Shown here piece by piece: positions 24,874 to 64,000 of a stretch of 64,000 bases of DNA. The DNA is taken from assembly GCA_016213785.1 (NCBI GenBank), contig JACQZQ010000021.1:62001-126000 (forward strand), written 5' to 3'. This DNA is from Acidobacteriota bacterium (GTDB lineage Bacteria > Acidobacteriota > Blastocatellia > Chloracidobacteriales > JADJPF01). Position numbers and translations under genes: made by a program. Numbering within the stretch: position 1 is the first letter of the stretch; each line of letters begins with the position of its first letter. The notes under the pieces were generated by a model, which was not told the DNA's origin, ran no database searches, and saw nothing but the letters and a program-made list of their open reading frames with translations.

Positions 24874-27800
24874 TTAATGACTAGAAGCTACAGATGATTT
24901 ATCAACACCAATTAATTTTGCTAAATAATCTTCAAACAATTTAATTCTCATATCAAAAACTGATTGCTGTATCATTTGTATTAAGTCATATTCCTCGCGA
25001 ATAGCTAAAAGAATAAAAAGTGACCAAAGCATTCTTTGTCGTTCTGGTTTTAAGTACTCTTTACGCTCTTTTGCACCAGCAATACCCGCCTCTTCTTGGA
25101 CTACAGCTTGTTCAACATCTGTATGCATCTCCTTTAAGAGTTGTAAATTAAGCTCAAACATACTTAAAAATCTGTTTTCATAATCTGGGTCATCACGGTA
25201 ATAAATATTGCGGTACTGATAAAATTTTAGACATATTTGCTCAGCAATAGCTTTAGGCATACTTACTAATCTAATAATTTCATCAGGAGTTGCTTGAGAA
25301 AAATTATCAAACCTGTTCCATCCAGCAAATAAAAACCTATTAACTAGTTTAGCATCAACTTCTGGTATTTGTTTTAACACAAATTTTACTAGTAGTACTT
25401 CTTTACGCTCTACAAGGTCAGTTTCAGAAATAACTAAAGCAAAAGTCTTAGGTTGTAGTTCAGAAAGCTTTAAATAACTATGTGCTATTTGTTGGGAAAT
25501 ATCTGCATTAAAGTTTGCTTCCTTAAAAGTCATAGACCTTGTTCTTTGACTATTAATTACTAGTTGTAGCTCTACTAAAATAGCTCGCATTTGCAAATAA
25601 TTTAATTTTTCTGCCGAATTAATTAACACTGCAAGCGCAGGATCAACTAAATTTATCCAAGAAACAGAAAGAGGTCGGTTTGCTTTCCAATTACGGTATA
25701 GTTCCCGAATAAAATCCTTTAGTGGTTTAGCACAGGAAATAGCTATAGCATCAAACTTATCTTGTATTTCCTCTTGATTAAAATCTGTAGCTTTTTCTAT
25801 TTCCTGATCCAAAAGCAGATTAATTGTTTGTATAGTGGCATTTATATCTAAGTCGCTTGAATTATCTGCTAAATCTAGAGGATCATTATTAATTTCAATA
25901 TTTTCAATCTTTTCTACAGCACCTGTACGTAAAATAGGATCATCAATAAAAGCCTCTTCATATTTAGAAGCTACTTCTCTAACTTCAAAGTTAGTTTGAA
26001 TATAATTTACTAAAAGGTTTTGCTCTTCAGATAAAGGATTTTTTATATAATTTATTGATAGCTCAATAGCTTGAAGACAAGCTTTTAGGTCATTAGGTGC
26101 TAAGACTCGTCGGTTTTCATAATGTTCTAAATAAAACTCTCTCATTACACCTAAAACATAAAGTAGGACTTGATCTTGTGTTTCTCTCATTAAATCAGCA
26201 CATACTTCTCCTGATGTTTTATAATAATTAAACATTACAGGTCTTCGCTCAATACGTTTAAGGTTTAACTCAAGCATTACAAAACCATCTTCTATATAAA
26301 GCTCTTTATGTTCTTCCTTATGTCCATCAATAATTAACATCTTATGTTTAAAGAAATAAAGTAAAATTTTATAGATTTCATGTTTAGAAAGACGTGTTGC
26401 CTTACGTATATCTGGCAGAGTTGTATCTTGTGCTAAGACATTCCATACAAGACGATATTTTTTAGGTTCATCAGTAAGCTGTTCAAAGCTTGTATAAACA
26501 ATATTAACGGGTCTTTGCCTAAAACGTGAATTTGGTTGAATATAATTACTACCTATTTGTGTAATTTCACCTCGTCTTAATAACCCATTAGATACTAGCC
26601 TTAAAGTATCTAATTCTGTATTTTCCATAAGAGTAGGTCTTTGAGCAGGTTGAATATAAACATATTCAATTTCCCCTGCTTCTAGTAAAAAGCACCAATA
26701 AAAGGCTTCTTCCCCTGTTAATTGATGGCTAGCTACATTAGCTTTCCAAATATTACCTTTATGAAAATCAATTTGACCGCTAACACCATCCTCTGCTGTT
26801 ACAAGTAACCGGCAACTAATAGCTGAATCAACAATATAGCAAACTGCTTTAGGAAGATTTTTACCAATAGCAAAGCGTTGCAGCATTCTTTCATTAGCAA
26901 AAAAAGTCGTTGGTTGTTGAGAATTTAATATTTTTTCTGCTTCTGCTACTAAAGGATTTTTTTTAGACACTTTTTCAATTATTTCTCGGCATAGTTGCAT
27001 TACTGGTTCTGTTTTCATATGAGCAACTAACCTTAGTAATTCTATGGTAGTTTCAGTATCACCAAAAAGAGAAAAAGAATATTTTTGACGTTGGATTTCT
27101 TTCCAAATTCTAGCAGCTATAGATTGAATCAAGTAACTGCCTACTGGAATTTTACTAAATCTATCTACTATTTGTTTTAAGTCCCCTGTTTTTTGATAAA
27201 AATCAACTACTACTTCTAAGCCTTTGTCTAGTTCTATATCAATTAAAGCTAAAACAAGCTTTTGGCAAAGGTCTGCGGCTTTGGCGTTTTTTTCTGTCTC
27301 TACTTGGCGAAAACGAGCTATTAATTTTTCACAAGCCTGATCGCCTCCAATAAAAGATAATGTAGTAATAATTTGGTAGATAAGTTGACGCTGGGTATTT
27401 TTCTGCCAATAGTTATCTAAAAGAGTAACTGCTTCATTTTTCATTGCCTGATCATCACAAACTATTTTTCCAAGTAGTGATGCAATATTACGGGCATAAT
27501 ACCAAGGTTGAGTAGGTGCATTAGTAGTTAATTCATCAAGTAGCATACGATAAATATCTTTACCATAGCATTCAATCATTCTAAGCAATGTACGTCTAGC
27601 TCTACGATCATCTGCTATTTGAATATCATTTAACAAATAGTGTGGGTGCCAAGAAATAAATAGCGACATTGCATCTCTTACTAAAACTCTGTCATGCTCA
27701 GAAGAAACATAGGCTTCAATATTTTGTGTATTAAGAAGTTGTCCCTTCTCTTGAAATGATGTTAGCTGATATAGATCAACTTGCCAATTATTAGCTACAT

Positions 27801-29871
27801 CTTTAATTAAATGAAAAACTTGAACACTCTGATAAAGAAAATTATCATTAAATAAAGATACTGATAAATCGGCAAGCTGGGTTAAGTAATTTTCTGGCTT
27901 AAAAGTCTCTTTATTTTCATATTCATTGTAACGATCAGACTCGTTAGCTAAAAGTATTTCTTTTTTAATCTTTTTATCTTTTATTAAATCAACAAAGTCT
28001 GCGAGAATATTTTTTATTTTTGTCTGACATTCTTTTACTTTTTCAGCTAATTTAGGCTCCTTAAAGTTATATCTTTTTTCTGAAGATAACACACTATAGG
28101 TTAGATTTTTATAGACACCTTCATTAAATTGATCTTGATGGACAACAATTTCTTTACGCTTTTCTGCAATAAATTTTTCTTGGTTTTGGTTGCGAATTAA
28201 ACCTATAGGTCTAATGTCTTGCCAGCGAAAACGCTGAAATATTTCTGCTAGTTTTTCTTGTTCTTCAACAAGGCAAAAGCTTATTAAAGCTTGTTCAAAA
28301 GCAGGAAAAAACGAATAAATATTCTTAAAATTGACTATTTGGTAGAAAAATATATCAAAAACCTTATTACGTGCGCCTGTTAGAAGTTCTAAAAAAGGTA
28401 TTTGCTTAATCTTTATTGCCCATTGCATTACTAAATTAGCAACATATGGAGCACCTTTAGAGATTTCTAAAACTAAGGATGGAGCAACAATTAAAGGTGC
28501 TCTTATTCCTGCTAAAAACATATCAAAATCTGAAGTTAAAGCCAGTGATTTAACAGCTTCTATTAAACGTGGATCAACAAAACTAGTAGTATTTTCATCA
28601 TTTTGGCTAACAGTTTGCCCCAAACTATCATTTGTATCTAAAGCCAAATTTTTATCAAAAGCTTTTGAAAAAGTTTGTTCACTAGAGATATTTTTTGGTT
28701 CTTCTAAAGGTCTTGTAGCTTTCTTTAAGTTTATATCTTCATCAGTAGTTTTTTGAGATGTTTGGGCTAAAAGAGAAGTAGGAATAGTATTAGCTCCCGA
28801 GAGTCTTGGAGAGTTTGCTCTTGTAACATTGCTAGCTCCATGATGTTGAGTTGTATAAAGACTGCTTAAATCAGTTGTATCTCTAGGAATTCTAGTAGGC
28901 TGTGCTATTGGTGGTGTGAAAGGTGTTGATATTTGGGGATTTGGAGCAAAGATATTAGCTTGTCTATTTCTTCCTGTGCTTTTAGGAGCAAATTCTGAAG
29001 ATCCTTGAAACATAGTTTCTTGCTCAACTGTCTCTAGCTCTCGTTTTAGTTCCAAAACGGTTCGTTGTCTAGCAACAACATCTAAATGTATTCCACGATG
29101 AATGATTTCTCCTAAAGTTGGTGTAACAGAAGGTCTTAATTCACAAAGAGGAGTAACTTTTCCCATCATAGCAATAGGTACAGTACCAGTTAACATTTCA
29201 TAAACCATCAAACAAATAGTAAAAATATCAGACCTAGCATCTAATGGAACTCCATACATTTGCTCAGGAGACATATATTTTAATGTCCCCATACTCCAAT
29301 CTTCGTTAAGGGTAGGACTAGAGGATTCTTTCATTACAGCAATACCAAAATCCAGAACACGAGCCATTCTTTCACCATCATCAAATAGTTGAATCATAAT
29401 ATTTTCTGGTTTGAGATCACGGTGAACAATGCCTTGACGATGAGCCTCATGAAGACCTGCACAAATTTGTTTTGTTATATTTATAGCTTGGCGTTCAGAT
29501 AATTGACCTTCTGTTTTTAATAACTTACGTAAGGTAATTCCTTCAATATACTCCATTACAATATAAGGAGCTTCATCTGAAATAACGCCAAAATCCGTTA
29601 CCATTACAACATTTGGATGAGTTATTCTAGCTAAGGCTTCTGCTTCTCTTTCAAAGCGCACTAAATTAGCAGGATTGGCAGTGACTTGGGCAGGATGCAT
29701 TAGTTTAAGGGCAAAAGTTTTACTAAGCTTCAAGTGAGTTACCTTAAATACTTTTCCCATACCACCTTGCCCAAGTAGTTTATCAACGCGGTATTTACCT
29801 TCTATATTTGTTCCTACAATAGGATCACAAGCCTCTAAATCACTAGTTGTCTCATTCATCTCATCAGCCAT
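24874..29871 (-). CDS. Giant Ser/Thr protein kinase with HEAT-like region and PATAN (DUF4388)-like domain
   Basis: About 1665 residues. A Hanks-type kinase domain (about 26-300) has GQGGMGKVF (34-42), the ATP lysine in FALKLM (56), catalytic HRDLKPEN (150-157), DFG (174-176) and MSPEQM. A Ser/Thr/Pro-rich linker (about 300-440) is likely an autophosphorylation zone. A very long mostly helical region follows, with HEAT-like pieces around 740-930, then a PATAN/DUF4388-like module near 1005-1100 (GQIDFHKGNIWKANV, TGEEAFYWCFLLEAGEIEY), and more helices. No membrane helix is seen, so it is cytoplasmic. The frame opens with TTG at 29931, but the ATG at 29871 has GAGGG upstream and begins just before the kinase fold. 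First gene of an operon with the MOSC protein. Substrates unknown. Confidence 0.88.
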   Translation of the reverse strand: MADEMNETTSDLEACDPIVGTNIEGKYRVDKLLGQGGMGKVFKVTHLKLSKTFALKLMHPAQVTANPANLVRFEREAEALARITHPNVVMVTDFGVISDEAPYIVMEYIEGITLRKLLKTEGQLSERQAINITKQICAGLHEAHRQGIVHRDLKPENIMIQLFDDGERMARVLDFGIAVMKESSSPTLNEDWSMGTLKYMSPEQMYGVPLDARSDIFTICLMVYEMLTGTVPIAMMGKVTPLCELRPSVTPTLGEIIHRGIHLDVVARQRTVLELKRELETVEQETMFQGSSEFAPKSTGRNRQANIFAPNPQISTPFTPPIAQPTRIPRDTTDLSSLYTTQHHGASNVTRANSPRLSGANTIPTSLLAQTSQKTTDEDINLKKATRPLEEPKNISSEQTFSKAFDKNLALDTNDSLGQTVSQNDENTTSFVDPRLIEAVKSLALTSDFDMFLAGIRAPLIVAPSLVLEISKGAPYVANLVMQWAIKIKQIPFLELLTGARNKVFDIFFYQIVNFKNIYSFFPAFEQALISFCLVEEQEKLAEIFQRFRWQDIRPIGLIRNQNQEKFIAEKRKEIVVHQDQFNEGVYKNLTYSVLSSEKRYNFKEPKLAEKVKECQTKIKNILADFVDLIKDKKIKKEILLANESDRYNEYENKETFKPENYLTQLADLSVSLFNDNFLYQSVQVFHLIKDVANNWQVDLYQLTSFQEKGQLLNTQNIEAYVSSEHDRVLVRDAMSLFISWHPHYLLNDIQIADDRRARRTLLRMIECYGKDIYRMLLDELTTNAPTQPWYYARNIASLLGKIVCDDQAMKNEAVTLLDNYWQKNTQRQLIYQIITTLSFIGGDQACEKLIARFRQVETEKNAKAADLCQKLVLALIDIELDKGLEVVVDFYQKTGDLKQIVDRFSKIPVGSYLIQSIAARIWKEIQRQKYSFSLFGDTETTIELLRLVAHMKTEPVMQLCREIIEKVSKKNPLVAEAEKILNSQQPTTFFANERMLQRFAIGKNLPKAVCYIVDSAISCRLLVTAEDGVSGQIDFHKGNIWKANVASHQLTGEEAFYWCFLLEAGEIEYVYIQPAQRPTLMENTELDTLRLVSNGLLRRGEITQIGSNYIQPNSRFRQRPVNIVYTSFEQLTDEPKKYRLVWNVLAQDTTLPDIRKATRLSKHEIYKILLYFFKHKMLIIDGHKEEHKELYIEDGFVMLELNLKRIERRPVMFNYYKTSGEVCADLMRETQDQVLLYVLGVMREFYLEHYENRRVLAPNDLKACLQAIELSINYIKNPLSEEQNLLVNYIQTNFEVREVASKYEEAFIDDPILRTGAVEKIENIEINNDPLDLADNSSDLDINATIQTINLLLDQEIEKATDFNQEEIQDKFDAIAISCAKPLKDFIRELYRNWKANRPLSVSWINLVDPALAVLINSAEKLNYLQMRAILVELQLVINSQRTRSMTFKEANFNADISQQIAHSYLKLSELQPKTFALVISETDLVERKEVLLVKFVLKQIPEVDAKLVNRFLFAGWNRFDNFSQATPDEIIRLVSMPKAIAEQICLKFYQYRNIYYRDDPDYENRFLSMFELNLQLLKEMHTDVEQAVVQEEAGIAGAKERKEYLKPERQRMLWSLFILLAIREEYDLIQMIQQSVFDMRIKLFEDYLAKLIGVDKSSVASSH

Positions 29872-30099
29872 AATGCCCTCTAAAAATATTGATAAAATAG
29901 TAAGTATATAACTCTTATTTCTTATTAACAAACAGCCTACAGCAATCTACGAATTAATCTTATAACATTTATTTTGAGCCAAAATAAAAATACCCTAAAA
30001 CCACTAAATATCTGCTAAATGCTCTTGCTAAAGTCATTAAAATAGCTTTAATCACTTTGGAATAAAGATTAATTACTTCAAAATTAACTAGCTAACAAT

Positions 30100-57780: not shown

Positions 57781-59331
57781 TTATATTTTGCTAATAGCTT
57801 TTTCAACTATTGGCTTAATTTTATTACAACTATCTAAGAGTTTTTGCCTGGTGGCAGAAAGATTACAAGCTGCATCTATTTGTTGACGATCCCTAGCCGA
57901 AGAACTTTCTGTTTCTAATTCTTCAGCAATTTTTTGCGACTGTAAAATATAAAAATTTAACTTCATTAAATGAGCATTAGCTAATTGCGGAGAATCAGAA
58001 TGCAGTTTATATAAAGCTAAATTTTCCTGAATCTCTGCAATTAAAGCCACACTACGTTTTAGTACATCATAAGTTAAACGTGTAAAGTAGCTATCACTAG
58101 AAGCAGGCTTAAATGCATCAAATTCCCAGGAAGATAATACTAAAGTAGAGTGAGGAAGATTAAGAATTTTTACTGCTGATGGTCTAGGGCTTGTTTGAAT
58201 ACCTTTGATCATTTCATTAAGCGAGCTTAAACGCTCTTGAAGCCCAGTATCATCAACAGGAGATTCACTATCTAAGTTACGTTCATTAAGTGCTAACGCA
58301 ATATTTTCTACAGCAGGATTGCTTACAGCATATGGATCTAACCCATGTATTCTTGCAGTACGTTGCAACATATCGCGAACCTTTGCCAAATGTTCTAGAT
58401 AAGGCTGTGTTTCATTATAATCTGTTGCAAATAATTCTGAGGAACGGTTAGAAAATTCTATTGCAGAAAACAATCCATCTTGTGAAACAGGATTTATAGG
58501 ATTTTGCATCACTTCAGCATTAGAATTAAGAAGCGCAAGAGAAAACTTCTTAAGTTGCTCATTTTCTTCACGATAAAAATAATTAAACCTATTACGCAAC
58601 TCTACATTTAGCTGAACACATTTAGAAAGCACTTGAGTACTATAAAGACTTTCCCCTAGTTCATTCTTAAACTTACGCACTTCTGCAATTACTCCGCTAG
58701 AAACTAGTTGATCATAAGAAGAAATAGCTCTTACTTGCTCAGTATAATAAATTAACTGAGCAGTTGCACCTAAAGAGCCTACAGGAGGATTATTTCGCCA
58801 TTTCTTAGGTAAAAGCCTAGAAATAGCTTCTTCTAGTTTTTCTTCACTCTCAACATTAATATGTGCAATACCTTGCTCATCCACCCAGGAAAAAGCCCTT
58901 GCAAGTAAGTAATCAGCCTTAGAAAAATCATCTGCTGTTTGTTTATTTTTACCTAGAAAATATTTTGCCCAAGAAGATAATTGTGATTCATCAATATCAG
59001 TACTTTGCTCTAAGTAAGCTCTTAAGTCATAAGGTGAAATGCGTAAATCTAATTGAGCAAACCATTCACTAGTAGCAACTACTTCATGTGCAACAGTTTC
59101 TAGTCTTGTAAGTACAGCAGGAGATGAATTTTTTTGAATTACTTCATATAAAACTTTAAGTGTTCCATATAGACGATTAAGATCAAAAGGTGGCTCTATT
59201 AAGTCCTCATCGCCTAGTTGATAAGATAGTATTTCGTAGTGGTGTTTTATTGACCAAATTAGCTTAAAATCTGATAAAACTCGTTTATAAATTTGTAGTA
59301 GCTTTGGATTTACTGAGTCTTCAGAACTCAC
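57781..59331 (-). CDS. Helical protein of unknown function, neighbour of macroglobulin-like gene
   Basis: A 516-residue, almost wholly alpha-helical soluble protein; no signal peptide, membrane helix or catalytic motif is seen. Long amphipathic helices (for example LEEAISRLLPKKWRNNPPVG between helices, and LQERLSSLNEMIKGIQTS) suggest a scaffold or solenoid. Start is GTG with a GGGGG stretch about 10 bases before. The macroglobulin-like gene upstream ends at a strong terminator 180 bases earlier, so it is likely a separate unit, and it may be co-transcribed with hflX downstream (79 bases). Family unknown. Confidence 0.72.
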   Translation of the reverse strand: MSSEDSVNPKLLQIYKRVLSDFKLIWSIKHHYEILSYQLGDEDLIEPPFDLNRLYGTLKVLYEVIQKNSSPAVLTRLETVAHEVVATSEWFAQLDLRISPYDLRAYLEQSTDIDESQLSSWAKYFLGKNKQTADDFSKADYLLARAFSWVDEQGIAHINVESEEKLEEAISRLLPKKWRNNPPVGSLGATAQLIYYTEQVRAISSYDQLVSSGVIAEVRKFKNELGESLYSTQVLSKCVQLNVELRNRFNYFYREENEQLKKFSLALLNSNAEVMQNPINPVSQDGLFSAIEFSNRSSELFATDYNETQPYLEHLAKVRDMLQRTARIHGLDPYAVSNPAVENIALALNERNLDSESPVDDTGLQERLSSLNEMIKGIQTSPRPSAVKILNLPHSTLVLSSWEFDAFKPASSDSYFTRLTYDVLKRSVALIAEIQENLALYKLHSDSPQLANAHLMKLNFYILQSQKIAEELETESSSARDRQQIDAACNLSATRQKLLDSCNKIKPIVEKAISKI

Positions 59332-59511: not shown

Positions 59512-62500
59512 CTAGCTAAACATGTTTCTAAACGCGACTAAAGCCCGACCTAAGATAGAATTACCACTACTACCACTAGGAGCTACAGTAATTTCTAAAA
59601 GTCCAGGATTAGCACCTCTTTCTTCTTCAAACATATTTCTTAGACAAACAGCAAAATGTTGTGGGCTAACTGCTCCTTCTTTATTTACTGTAATAGAAGT
59701 TGCTGCAAGTGAAACTACTACCTCATCCTTTCCTTCAAAATCTATGGAGAATTTTTTTACTTGACCTCCTCCAACAATTCTAGATAGCGCTTCTGGTAAA
59801 CATACCCAAAGTAAATCTCCTACTTTATAACCTTCATTTAATTTAACCTTTAAGCTAATTGCATCTCCAACATTAATTTGACGTTGAGCGCGTCCATCTT
59901 TTTCCACTGAAACTTTTATTGGTATGGTGCTATTAAAGCTAGACCAGTCTTCCTCAATTATTCTAGTTATTTCAACGGGAATAACTCCTTCAATTACATT
60001 AATTGACTCTATTTTATCAGTAGTAGTAATAGCTTCACTCCTAGAAACTCTACTAGCGTTTATTTCTAGTTTTCCACTCCCACTAACTACTTTAGCAGCT
60101 TGAAGTTCTGACATTAAAGCTATTGCGGCTACTGAATCTAGGGTTGAATAAAGTCTTCCATTTTCCCCTAAATCTTTTACAACTTTATTGGTTAAAGCCA
60201 ATGCATTTATATGATCAGAACCCATTCCAGCGCGAAATAGAGTGGCTGCGGCAAAAGAGGCTTCTGCACGCCTACCTACTGAGCCGCCATAATAGTGATC
60301 ATTAACAGGGGCAAGTTGAGTTTTACTATTATCAGCATATTTACGGACTATCTTTAATGCCTGTTCTTTAGCATTACTACTAAAACGTACAGCAGCATAA
60401 GCTTCTTCACAGGTATTAGGATTTTTTGGCGGCCAATCAAGTTTATATGCTGCGCTTGCATCCTTAGCCATTTCCAAACCCTCTTCTATAGCTTTAGCAA
60501 GTGCTGGGCTAGGGCGGCCTATTTCTCTAAGCAAAGATAAATTCCAAAGATAACGCGCAGCCTTAGGGCCATAATAATCATTTGGTTGATTAGAACTCTC
60601 TGGATACATCTTAAATCCTCGCCCTTTTAACCACATTGATTTTTCTCTACGAACTCCCGCAATAATAATTCCTTCTGCTTGACTACGACGTTTTATGTCT
60701 GCTCCAGCAAAAGAATACATTGCACAAGCTGATAGCATTATTGCAGCAGTTTGCTCGCAACATGCATGCCCATAATTTGATGTAGCATCCACTAAAGCCT
60801 GAAAAGGTTTGTCTAGACTAGGCATTACCCTAAGTCCTATTACATCAGAATTTGGTTCTAAAGAAATTTTTTCTCCTTCTCTAACAAAACAAAGCGCTTT
60901 AGATAAATACTTAAATTTACCAGGAATATTAATTCGTTTAGCAACATAGTCAACTCGTTTATTTATAGGGTCTTCAGCCATTACTTCATAATCACCTGCA
61001 ACAGCTAAAAAACTTACTTCAGCCCTTGAAGCATTAATTAATTCTTTTTGGTCTAGTGAGCGACCATCATAGACTAGCTGTACTGGTTTCTTATCACAGG
61101 TTACAATGACTTGGATTTGTCCAGATGTCGATCCTAAATGGACACGTCCTATCGCAGTGTCGGACGGATGGACAAATAAAGGAATATCTAAATCAGCAAA
61201 AACTTCCTTTTCTGCCCTAAAACGTGTTTCACTACTAGCCCAGTCTAAGCCTGAGATAGCAAAAGCTTCTACAATATAATCAGCAAAAGCATCCCCAAGT
61301 TCTAAAGTAATACTTGCTAGACCATTTTTTACTTCTACTAAATCAGCAAAAAGCACTTCTGGATCTTCTACTGTAGTAGGTTTAGAACTACTAGTTCCTT
61401 GCCCTTCAGAATCTTGACTGCTTTCACTTTTACTTACACTTGGCATAGCTTTTTTAAGGCTACCTGTAGGGAATGAGGATTTTCCAGCAGTAACGGGTGC
61501 AGCACCAATAGTTGTAGACTCAAGAAAAGCTTCTGCAACTGGAATTGCACCTGCCCCTGGAGCAGATGCAGGTACTGGCATCATTGGCATAGGTGTAAGT
61601 CCTAGAGTCTGTACTGGAGCAATAGACCTCATTGCAGTTGGCATTGGAATAGAAGCAAGCATAGGCTGACTAATATAATTACGTAATTTATCTTCTGGAT
61701 TACCTAGCATTAATTTCTGAGAAGTTTTTTCAACTAGTTCTTTTATTTGTCCAGCTAAACGGCTAGAAGCTGTATCACTACTAAGTAATCTTGCATCCTT
61801 AACAATTAAATAAACAGCAGAATTGCTATCTGACTCTAATTCAACCTCTATTTTTATTTCGCTACTTGGACGGCATACTTCAGGAAGTTTAATTTTAGGC
61901 ATTATTTCGCTAGGTGATACCACTGCTGCCCAACCTTCCCAAGCTTTTCCTTCTATATAGGCTCCAATAGCTAAAATAGCTGTAGGTGCAGGTATATCAA
62001 TTTCTATTACATCTCCACTAGTTAGCATCTCAAAATTAAATTGTTTTCGTCCGCCTGTCTTTAACATTTCATAAGGTGGATAATCTCGTAGGTTTGCTAA
62101 ATCATCATCATTAATCATATGAGCAAAGTCTATCCAACCATCTTCAATTGCTAAACGAAGTGCTGCAACAGCTTTTCTACAGTCTCCCTCACGAGCATAA
62201 CAACAGGCTATATAATAAGCATAATTTGGATGAGGAGATGAAAGAGTTGCTCGTTTTTCTTCAAACATCACTCTAGCCTGAGCATACTTACCATCATTAA
62301 ATATCTTTTCAGCAAAACGGTAAATTTCATCTTCATTTGCTGGATGAGTAGCAGTATTAGGATTAACTGCCCCGCTACGAGGTGACGGAAAAGTATGATC
62401 AATTGCTACAACACAAACTGACTCTGCCCGAGTACTAGCAATTAAACGTGCTTGAGCGCTATCAACTCTTTCTAATCTAAAAGGTGCATTGGAAATGGTA

Positions 62501-63495
62501 GCCTCTTCTAAAAAAATCCCTCTTACTTGTTGGCTATTTTCTCCAGGCATTAATGAACCATAAACTGTTGTTCCTAAAAAAGAAAAAGGGGTTTGTTTAC
62601 GTTCAGTAGCACGACTTCCAACAATTGGAATAGTAGCAGTACGCGAAGGATCACTTACTAACTGGACATTTATCGAGTGTGGCCCTTCACCACTTAATGT
62701 AAAACTAGTTTCTAGATTGCCCTCAAGAGCTTCGGCTTTATTAATAGCAACTCGGCGACCTCTATCTGTTAGTTCTAATTGAACCGCTCCATTAACTGAA
62801 ACACCAAAGGCTTCTAGACGAATTTTTACAGTAAGTTTATCTCCCTCTAAACGACGATCGGTTAAACTTGCTACTAATGGAGCAAGCCTATATTCGGCAA
62901 CCGTAAAACTACAAGCAGGCTCTTCTTTAGGAGCATTACGGAATTTAACCTCATAGCTACCTGAGGGTAAATCTTTAAGTAAAAGCGTAGCCGCACCTGC
63001 TGAATTAAAACGTATTGAGTGACGAGAAAATTCTGTAGAGTTAGAAAAAACCTCTATCTGCGCATCTGTATCAGGATTAACTGGATCTAGCAGTAAAAGA
63101 TGAACATCATCTTTTTTCTCTCTATAAATAGCCTTATCGCTAGTAATACTAGCTAATCTAAGTTTTGGGACACTAACAGGTTGAATAGAAACTGCTGGTA
63201 AAATTAATTGCTCAGGCCCAAGTAAGGAAAGCACTTGAGAATGTAATACAGATTTACCAAAAAAATGTTTTGTCCAGGCAAGGCCGGGTTGATCAAAAAT
63301 TTCCTTTTTTACATACGCAAAAGCCTTACCTAAAATAATATAATCAGCTATTTGATTAGCTAAATTCCAGTCCTGTGTTATTACTTGATCTCGTTCTAAG
63401 GATTGAGAGTTTTTTATCAGCAAGGCTCCACAACTTGGACAATATGAAGAAGTAACCCTTCCAGTAATATTATAGTTACAACTTGGACAAAACAT
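59512..63495 (-). CDS. Alpha-2-macroglobulin-like thioester protein with N-terminal zinc ribbon
   Basis: A 1327-residue protein. It starts with a zinc ribbon, Cys3, Cys6, Cys19, Cys22, immediately after a strong Shine-Dalgarno (AAAGGAGG), and has no signal peptide or lipobox. A series of beta-sandwich (MG-like) segments follows (about 95-380), then a helical/TPR-like insert (about 395-460), more beta domains, a Pro/Met/Ala-rich low-complexity stretch (about 625-680) where macroglobulins carry bait sequences, then LDIPLFVHPSDTAIGRVHLG and a helical thioester-type domain with Ala-Cys912-Cys913-Glu914-Gln915-Thr, matching C-x-E-Q. It ends in a receptor-like beta domain. Function unknown; thioester A2M proteins trap proteases outside cells, which does not suit the zinc ribbon and missing signal. 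Confidence 0.82.
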   Translation of the reverse strand: MFCPSCNYNITGRVTSSYCPSCGALLIKNSQSLERDQVITQDWNLANQIADYIILGKAFAYVKKEIFDQPGLAWTKHFFGKSVLHSQVLSLLGPEQLILPAVSIQPVSVPKLRLASITSDKAIYREKKDDVHLLLLDPVNPDTDAQIEVFSNSTEFSRHSIRFNSAGAATLLLKDLPSGSYEVKFRNAPKEEPACSFTVAEYRLAPLVASLTDRRLEGDKLTVKIRLEAFGVSVNGAVQLELTDRGRRVAINKAEALEGNLETSFTLSGEGPHSINVQLVSDPSRTATIPIVGSRATERKQTPFSFLGTTVYGSLMPGENSQQVRGIFLEEATISNAPFRLERVDSAQARLIASTRAESVCVVAIDHTFPSPRSGAVNPNTATHPANEDEIYRFAEKIFNDGKYAQARVMFEEKRATLSSPHPNYAYYIACCYAREGDCRKAVAALRLAIEDGWIDFAHMINDDDLANLRDYPPYEMLKTGGRKQFNFEMLTSGDVIEIDIPAPTAILAIGAYIEGKAWEGWAAVVSPSEIMPKIKLPEVCRPSSEIKIEVELESDSNSAVYLIVKDARLLSSDTASSRLAGQIKELVEKTSQKLMLGNPEDKLRNYISQPMLASIPMPTAMRSIAPVQTLGLTPMPMMPVPASAPGAGAIPVAEAFLESTTIGAAPVTAGKSSFPTGSLKKAMPSVSKSESSQDSEGQGTSSSKPTTVEDPEVLFADLVEVKNGLASITLELGDAFADYIVEAFAISGLDWASSETRFRAEKEVFADLDIPLFVHPSDTAIGRVHLGSTSGQIQVIVTCDKKPVQLVYDGRSLDQKELINASRAEVSFLAVAGDYEVMAEDPINKRVDYVAKRINIPGKFKYLSKALCFVREGEKISLEPNSDVIGLRVMPSLDKPFQALVDATSNYGHACCEQTAAIMLSACAMYSFAGADIKRRSQAEGIIIAGVRREKSMWLKGRGFKMYPESSNQPNDYYGPKAARYLWNLSLLREIGRPSPALAKAIEEGLEMAKDASAAYKLDWPPKNPNTCEEAYAAVRFSSNAKEQALKIVRKYADNSKTQLAPVNDHYYGGSVGRRAEASFAAATLFRAGMGSDHINALALTNKVVKDLGENGRLYSTLDSVAAIALMSELQAAKVVSGSGKLEINASRVSRSEAITTTDKIESINVIEGVIPVEITRIIEEDWSSFNSTIPIKVSVEKDGRAQRQINVGDAISLKVKLNEGYKVGDLLWVCLPEALSRIVGGGQVKKFSIDFEGKDEVVVSLAATSITVNKEGAVSPQHFAVCLRNMFEEERGANPGLLEITVAPSGSSGNSILGRALVAFRNMFS

Positions 63496-63546
63496 TCTGA
63501 CCTCCTTTTACTAGCTATTAAATTCTAAATAAACTCTTATAGCTAT

Positions 63547-64000
63547 TTACTTAATAGCTTTTATATTATTAGGTTTAACAAACAGTTTATCAGAAATAGG
63601 AATGTTAAATTCCCTTGTATCATAATTAATACGTAAGACTTGTTTTCCATTTTCAAATAAATCTACTACGTAAGGAGTCTTAAGTGAGTTAATATCAATG
63701 TACTTAAAGAAACGGTTTTCGGCTTTTACTCTTTGCCCTTCATAAGTATCTTTAGGGAAACGTAAAGCAATAGGAAGTTTAGTCTGTGGGTCAAAAAATA
63801 GTTCTGCTTCTTCTTTATCCAAATAGGTTAATTTTACTCCTTCGCCATATTGACGCGGCCAAAGTTCTTGACGTGGAATATAGGTAATTTCAATAGATGG
63901 ATCATTCCACCCACCCCTAAGAATTTTGTCTACTTGATAGCGTAAAGTGCGAAGGAACCTATCTTTTTGTGCTTGTGTTTGATCTCTTAAAAGTTCTGAG
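63547..64000 (-). CDS. LolA-like/outer-membrane lipoprotein-sorting-like protein, C-terminal part
   Basis: The frame is open to the window edge, so the gene starts beyond 64000; about 150 C-terminal residues are visible. The sequence shows a LolA-type half-barrel ending: TYLDKEEAELFFDPQTKLPIALRF, then FFKYIDINSLKTPYVVDLF, ENGKQVLRINYDTREFNIPISDKLFVKP. Such proteins carry lipids or lipoproteins in the periplasm, or bind other ligands. It lies 51 bases upstream of the macroglobulin-like gene on the same strand, so it is likely co-transcribed with it. Confidence 0.72.
   Translation of the reverse strand, partial: SELLRDQTQAQKDRFLRTLRYQVDKILRGGWNDPSIEITYIPRQELWPRQYGEGVKLTYLDKEEAELFFDPQTKLPIALRFPKDTYEGQRVKAENRFFKYIDINSLKTPYVVDLFENGKQVLRINYDTREFNIPISDKLFVKPNNIKAIK

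Follow-up and report, generated by a model that had tools for sequence, protein, structure and literature searches.

A signal-less clade of alpha-2-macroglobulin homologues with an invariant thioester motif, likely resident in the bacterial cytoplasm

The minus strand of contig JACQZQ010000021.1, from an Acidobacteriota genome of the class Blastocatellia (assembly GCA_016213785.1; here the source genome, G000), carries at positions 59512-63495 of the 64,000-nucleotide stretch analysed here (the window) a gene for a 1327-residue protein. This protein is a genuine homologue of alpha-2-macroglobulin (A2M) and hence a relative of the complement and A2M protease traps of animals. A first-pass annotation of the window had found no export signal in it and had allowed for a missed upstream start encoding a signal peptide. 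That possibility can be ruled out, because a Shine-Dalgarno sequence and in-frame TAG-TAA stops stand directly before the ATG, excluding both a longer N-terminus and a hidden signal peptide. The features of the gene are listed below by their positions in the window.

59512-63495, minus strand: gene for the A2M-like protein, 1327 residues, ATG start set by the Shine-Dalgarno sequence and the in-frame stops
63500-63509, minus strand: Shine-Dalgarno sequence AAAAGGAGGT, described as strong, ending 4 nt upstream of the ATG
63508-63513, minus strand: in-frame stops TAG TAA, the first overlapped by the Shine-Dalgarno sequence
63418-63495, minus strand: putative single N-terminal zinc ribbon CPSC-x12-CPSC, residues 1-26, in this genome only and below the Pfam zinc-ribbon cut-off
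62386-63390, minus strand: N-terminal and beta-sandwich (MG-like) domains, residues 36-370, from AlphaFold strands (confidence, pLDDT, mostly 80-90) and Foldseek matches to complement C3/C4/A2M
62056-62385, minus strand: TPR-type helical insert, residues ~371-480, present in the Blastocatellia copies and absent from the Myxococcota copies
61696-62055, minus strand: MG6-like beta domain, residues 481-600, predicted by AlphaFold
61363-61695, minus strand: hypervariable linker rich in Pro, Met and Ser at the bait-region position, residues 601-711, predicted by AlphaFold to be disordered (pLDDT 27-39)
61156-61362, minus strand: A2M domain (PF00207, MG7-like), residues 712-780, from a borderline Pfam match, the profile aligning with human A2M residues 736-858
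60097-60813, minus strand: helical thioester domain, residues ~895-1133, from AlphaFold helices and hhalign to canonical A2Ms
60751-60762, minus strand: predicted thioester motif C912-C913-E914-Q915, preceded by the invariant Y908, from the homologue alignment
59512-60078, minus strand: C-terminal MG (receptor-binding-like) domain with the invariant M1288 and an aromatic residue at 1289, from AlphaFold and the alignment

Of the features described in the first-pass annotation, the N-terminal ribbon cysteines and the CCEQT at residues 912-916 are confirmed by the sequence, and the series of beta-sandwiches and the bait-like stretch by the AlphaFold models. The annotation had overlooked the helical insert, which scores 42.1 bits against NCBIfam TPR_END_plus over residues ~376-480 (cut-off 32). 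The structure prediction that it had proposed yielded the MG-type beta series and the helical thioester domain. In the models (mean pLDDT 76, from shallow alignments) the order is beta domains, TPR-like helical insert, disordered stretch, beta domains, helical thioester domain and C-terminal beta domain.

A single-sequence search with the 1327-residue protein gave no match in the PDB. A profile built from the C-terminal halves of seven homologues matched E. coli YfhM (5a42 and 4ziq; E 1.4e-5), Salmonella A2M (4u48; 5e-5) and human A2M (6tav; 7e-5), and placed the thioester cysteine on the Cys of CLEQ in YfhM (5a42). In an hhalign comparison with canonical A2Ms, 14 proteins drawn from Acidobacteriota and Myxococcota, the family gave an E-value of 4.2e-20 over 424 columns. 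The top 50 Foldseek matches were all A2M, TEP, CD109 or complement proteins (best E 3.7e-29), and the N-terminal half searched separately also matched C3 and A2M. One homologue (G245) scores 27.0 bits against PF00207, clearly over the gathering cut-off of 21. The profile matches to the PDB, the hhalign comparison and the Foldseek results thus bear out the A2M-type identity first proposed from sequence features.

Cys912, Glu914, Gln915 and Thr916 are invariant across eight homologues, down to ~30% identity, and position 913 is either Cys or Ser, as the C-x-E-Q motif predicts; the retention of this motif in orthologues, on which the original assignment turned, was therefore upheld. Tyr908, four residues ahead of Cys912, is likewise invariant and corresponds to Tyr1175 of Salmonella A2M, in which the thioester is shielded by a pocket comprising Tyr1175/Tyr1177 and Met1625/Tyr1626 (PMC4498604). 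Close to the C-terminus, an invariant Met followed by Phe or Tyr resembles the Met-Tyr pair of that pocket. We infer that a thioester forms between Cys912 and Gln915. The disordered, hypervariable segment, for its part, sits exactly where canonical A2Ms have their bait: it directly precedes the A2M domain, the same place as the human A2M bait in the profile alignment. Its identity to the protein of the sister species (genome G001) is 50%, as against 77-90% in the flanks, and its length and composition vary from member to member in the whole family. Proteolytic cleavage would be expected within this linker.

Profile searches covered Acidobacteriota and Myxococcota, the class-wide search using the C-terminal part of the protein since a first profile had been swamped by TPR matches. 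The family was present in 4 of 162 Blastocatellia genomes and 4 of 195 Myxococcota genomes, and one species-wide scan with close-relative patterns gave two loci. Set against canonical A2Ms, the family forms a single clade on a long branch (support 100/100), and its seven complete members have intact frames of 1133-1327 codons. The copy from Archangium clusters with those of Blastocatellia, not with those of other Myxococcota, which suggests transfer between the phyla. A tblastn search of plasmids gave no match, PADLOC gave no relevant match for the family or its neighbours, and PHROGs gave just weak matches to the ribbon. In the open-access literature searched, we found no published description of this A2M clade.

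Scored over its best 11 residues, the N-terminus of the window protein has a low hydrophobicity of 1.27, and no homologue exceeds 2.2; by this measure no export signal was found in the protein or in any homologue. The source genome also encodes three canonical A2Ms, all with CxEQ, which reach 2.9-3.3; their genes lie on contigs C21 and C107 (L110, L111 and L112), two of them ~40 kb apart on one contig. Individual members of the clade are fused to further domains. The G259 homologue begins with an MshEN domain (E 1.9e-17), a class of intracellular receptor for cyclic di-GMP (c-di-GMP; PMC5013675), and the G697 homologue has an FHA phospho-peptide domain within the bait-position segment (E 3.5e-18). 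Given that signals are missing from orthologues in two phyla and that MshEN, FHA or TPR domains are fused to individual members, the protein likely resides in the cytoplasm, the separate fusions arguing for this location better than the absence of a signal alone. The earlier suggestion that this lineage had brought the fold into the cytoplasm is, on these findings, the best reading.

Like type I bacterial A2Ms (E. coli ECAM/YfhM, Salmonella SaA2M), the protein has an MG series, a disordered segment at the bait position, a PF00207-like domain, a helical thioester domain with Y-x-x-x-C-x-E-Q and a C-terminal MG domain that carries a Met-aromatic pair. Unlike them, it has no signal peptide or lipobox, and its clade is separate and long-branched, includes cytosolic accessory domains and comprises proteins of 1133-1327 residues as opposed to ~1650 in type I. 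A pbpC (PBP1c) neighbour, frequent though not universal in type I, was not recognised at the loci read. The type II protein MagD of P. aeruginosa shares the A2M architecture, but is periplasmic, is encoded within a six-gene operon and is without CxEQ (PMC5764988), whereas the protein described here has CxEQ and no six-gene operon. With human A2M, complement C3, TEP and CD109 it has the fold and the thioester logic in common, the profile aligning just after the human bait region; unlike these secreted or cell-surface proteins it lacks an export signal, and identity is ~10%. Archaeal A2M homologues also combine a thioester domain with CxEQ and varied domain organisations, yet a signal peptide is typically predicted for those specific to archaea (PMC8416519), unlike the present clade. 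Judged by sequence and predicted structure, the protein shares the MG-type beta series and the helical C-x-E-Q domain of the superfamily, with a borderline PF00207 match and a putative bait, and yet falls outside the periplasmic types I and II.

Both bacterial and animal A2Ms are known to act as bait-triggered covalent traps (PMC5764988, PMC4498604). Since the parts of the protein and their order match those of such a trap, the same mechanism may operate in the cytoplasm, and we consider it about evenly balanced whether this distinct clade of thioester-motif proteins of the A2M superfamily consists of cytoplasmic, bait-triggered covalent protease traps. In such a scheme, the Cys912-Gln915 thioester would form in a protein folded in the cytoplasm, where Tyr908 and the C-terminal Met-aromatic pair would shield it from cytosolic thiols and water. 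A protease cutting the linker would free the thioester domain, which would then bond covalently to lysines of that protease, and the fused modules (TPR, FHA, MshEN, zinc ribbon) may tether or gate the trap. Proteases from phage, predators or rivals, or runaway self proteases, would be the likely targets. More tentatively, some bacteria may possess an intracellular complement-like system, a cytoplasmic thioester trap that bonds covalently to invading or runaway proteases and that phospho-threonine, nucleotide or TPR modules tether or gate. In the literature surveyed, the A2Ms described from animals, Gram-negative bacteria and archaea all function outside the cytoplasm. A clade that combines an intact thioester motif with cytosolic fusions would show that thioester chemistry is feasible in a reducing compartment; it prompts one to ask whether bacteria have an intracellular covalent protease trap and offers a small, testable set of proteins.

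Several observations weigh against a cytoplasmic trap. The match of the window protein to PF00207 is borderline (16.9 bits in the protein search and 21.2 bits in the six-frame search, cut-off 21), and Foldseek TM-scores are 0.2-0.4 because the arrangement of the domains, recognisable as they are individually, is unreliably predicted. The C-terminal MG domains, aligned alone as a profile with canonical ones, gave no significant match, and for this reason the equivalence of the Met-aromatic pair to the thioester pocket is only suggestive. Cytosolic thiols could attack an exposed thioester. The MshEN domain of the G259 homologue deviates from the published c-di-GMP motif, and this gate may be silent. 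The loci gave no hint of a target in the form of a protease, a defence gene or a conserved neighbour. Cysteine richness (18 residues, versus 2-4 in canonical A2Ms) was considered as a cytosolic marker and set aside, since within the window it fails to separate exported from cytosolic proteins clearly.

As the main rival to a protease trap, the protein may form its thioester in the cytoplasm and yet serve in signalling or scaffolding: it would bond covalently to a cellular partner, or the whole would act as a signalling scaffold that contacts through phospho-threonine, nucleotide or TPR switch. The accessory domains (FHA, MshEN, TPR) are typical of signalling, and Ser/Thr kinase-TPR genes adjoin the G005 and G259 copies; the Archangium copy has a kinase gene nearby. 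Such kinase genes are common in these genomes, however, which makes their proximity weak evidence, and all members have kept a hypervariable linker at the bait position, as traps do; we regard this alternative as rather unlikely, if the strongest of those considered. The periplasmic location of the bacterial A2Ms described so far (PMC5764988, PMC3328433) would instead favour export independent of an N-terminal signal, by a one-step secretion system or release on lysis, with proteases trapped outside the cell. This we hold to be improbable: the MshEN and FHA fusions are of intracellular type and have no known outside role, no secretion genes were seen beside the loci read, and the same genome encodes canonical paralogues that do bear signals. 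Finally, the patchy distribution of the family could reflect a decayed A2M copy that has lost its signal and its function, but the intact frames of the seven complete members, the invariance of the thioester residues across a long divergence and the absence of a signal throughout the clade make decay very hard to credit.

The putative zinc ribbon, in which Cys3, Cys6, Cys19 and Cys22 make up the CPSC-x12-CPSC of residues 3-22, does not form with A2M a conserved architecture of the kind the first-pass annotation had proposed to look for. Its best Pfam zinc-ribbon score is 13.5 bits (cut-off 33.2) and its AlphaFold confidence is below 50. The protein of the sister species (75-86% identical) begins MSTQVITQDWN, preceded by a ribosome site of its own, and lacks the ribbon, as does every other homologue. 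The source genome encodes other proteins with comparable ribbons at the N-terminus. From these comparisons of sequence, the ribbon is a local addition specific to that genome.

The neighbourhood of the A2M gene is not conserved across the homologues, and neither of the two adjoining genes once put forward as partners has retained that standing. The LolA-like gene adjoins the A2M gene only within the genus, and its product is itself exported; it occupies 63547-64000 of the window and is complete as L016:10548-11354, encoding 268 residues with a signal-like N-terminus (hydrophobicity 3.1) and no Pfam match at E 0.1. The helical 516-residue protein (57781-59331) has relatives in G002 and G003, two genomes in which the search found no A2M of this family. 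In the sister genome the two genes are unlinked: the orthologue of the helical protein lies on another contig, and a different gene follows the A2M gene. The helical protein has no Pfam or NCBIfam match, several matching places in the source genome and orthologues in G001-G003. Elsewhere in the window, 24874-29931 encodes a 1685-residue Ser/Thr kinase whose ~1300-residue C-terminal part has no clear family match in Pfam or NCBIfam. At the homologous loci, the Ser/Thr kinase-TPR genes L061:3981-6938 and L017:1340-5071 are immediate neighbours of two A2M homologues, one pair being in tandem and the other convergent, and an MshEN-GAF-HEAT protein is encoded (L105:89-2617) ~2.3 kb upstream of the FHA-containing homologue of G697.
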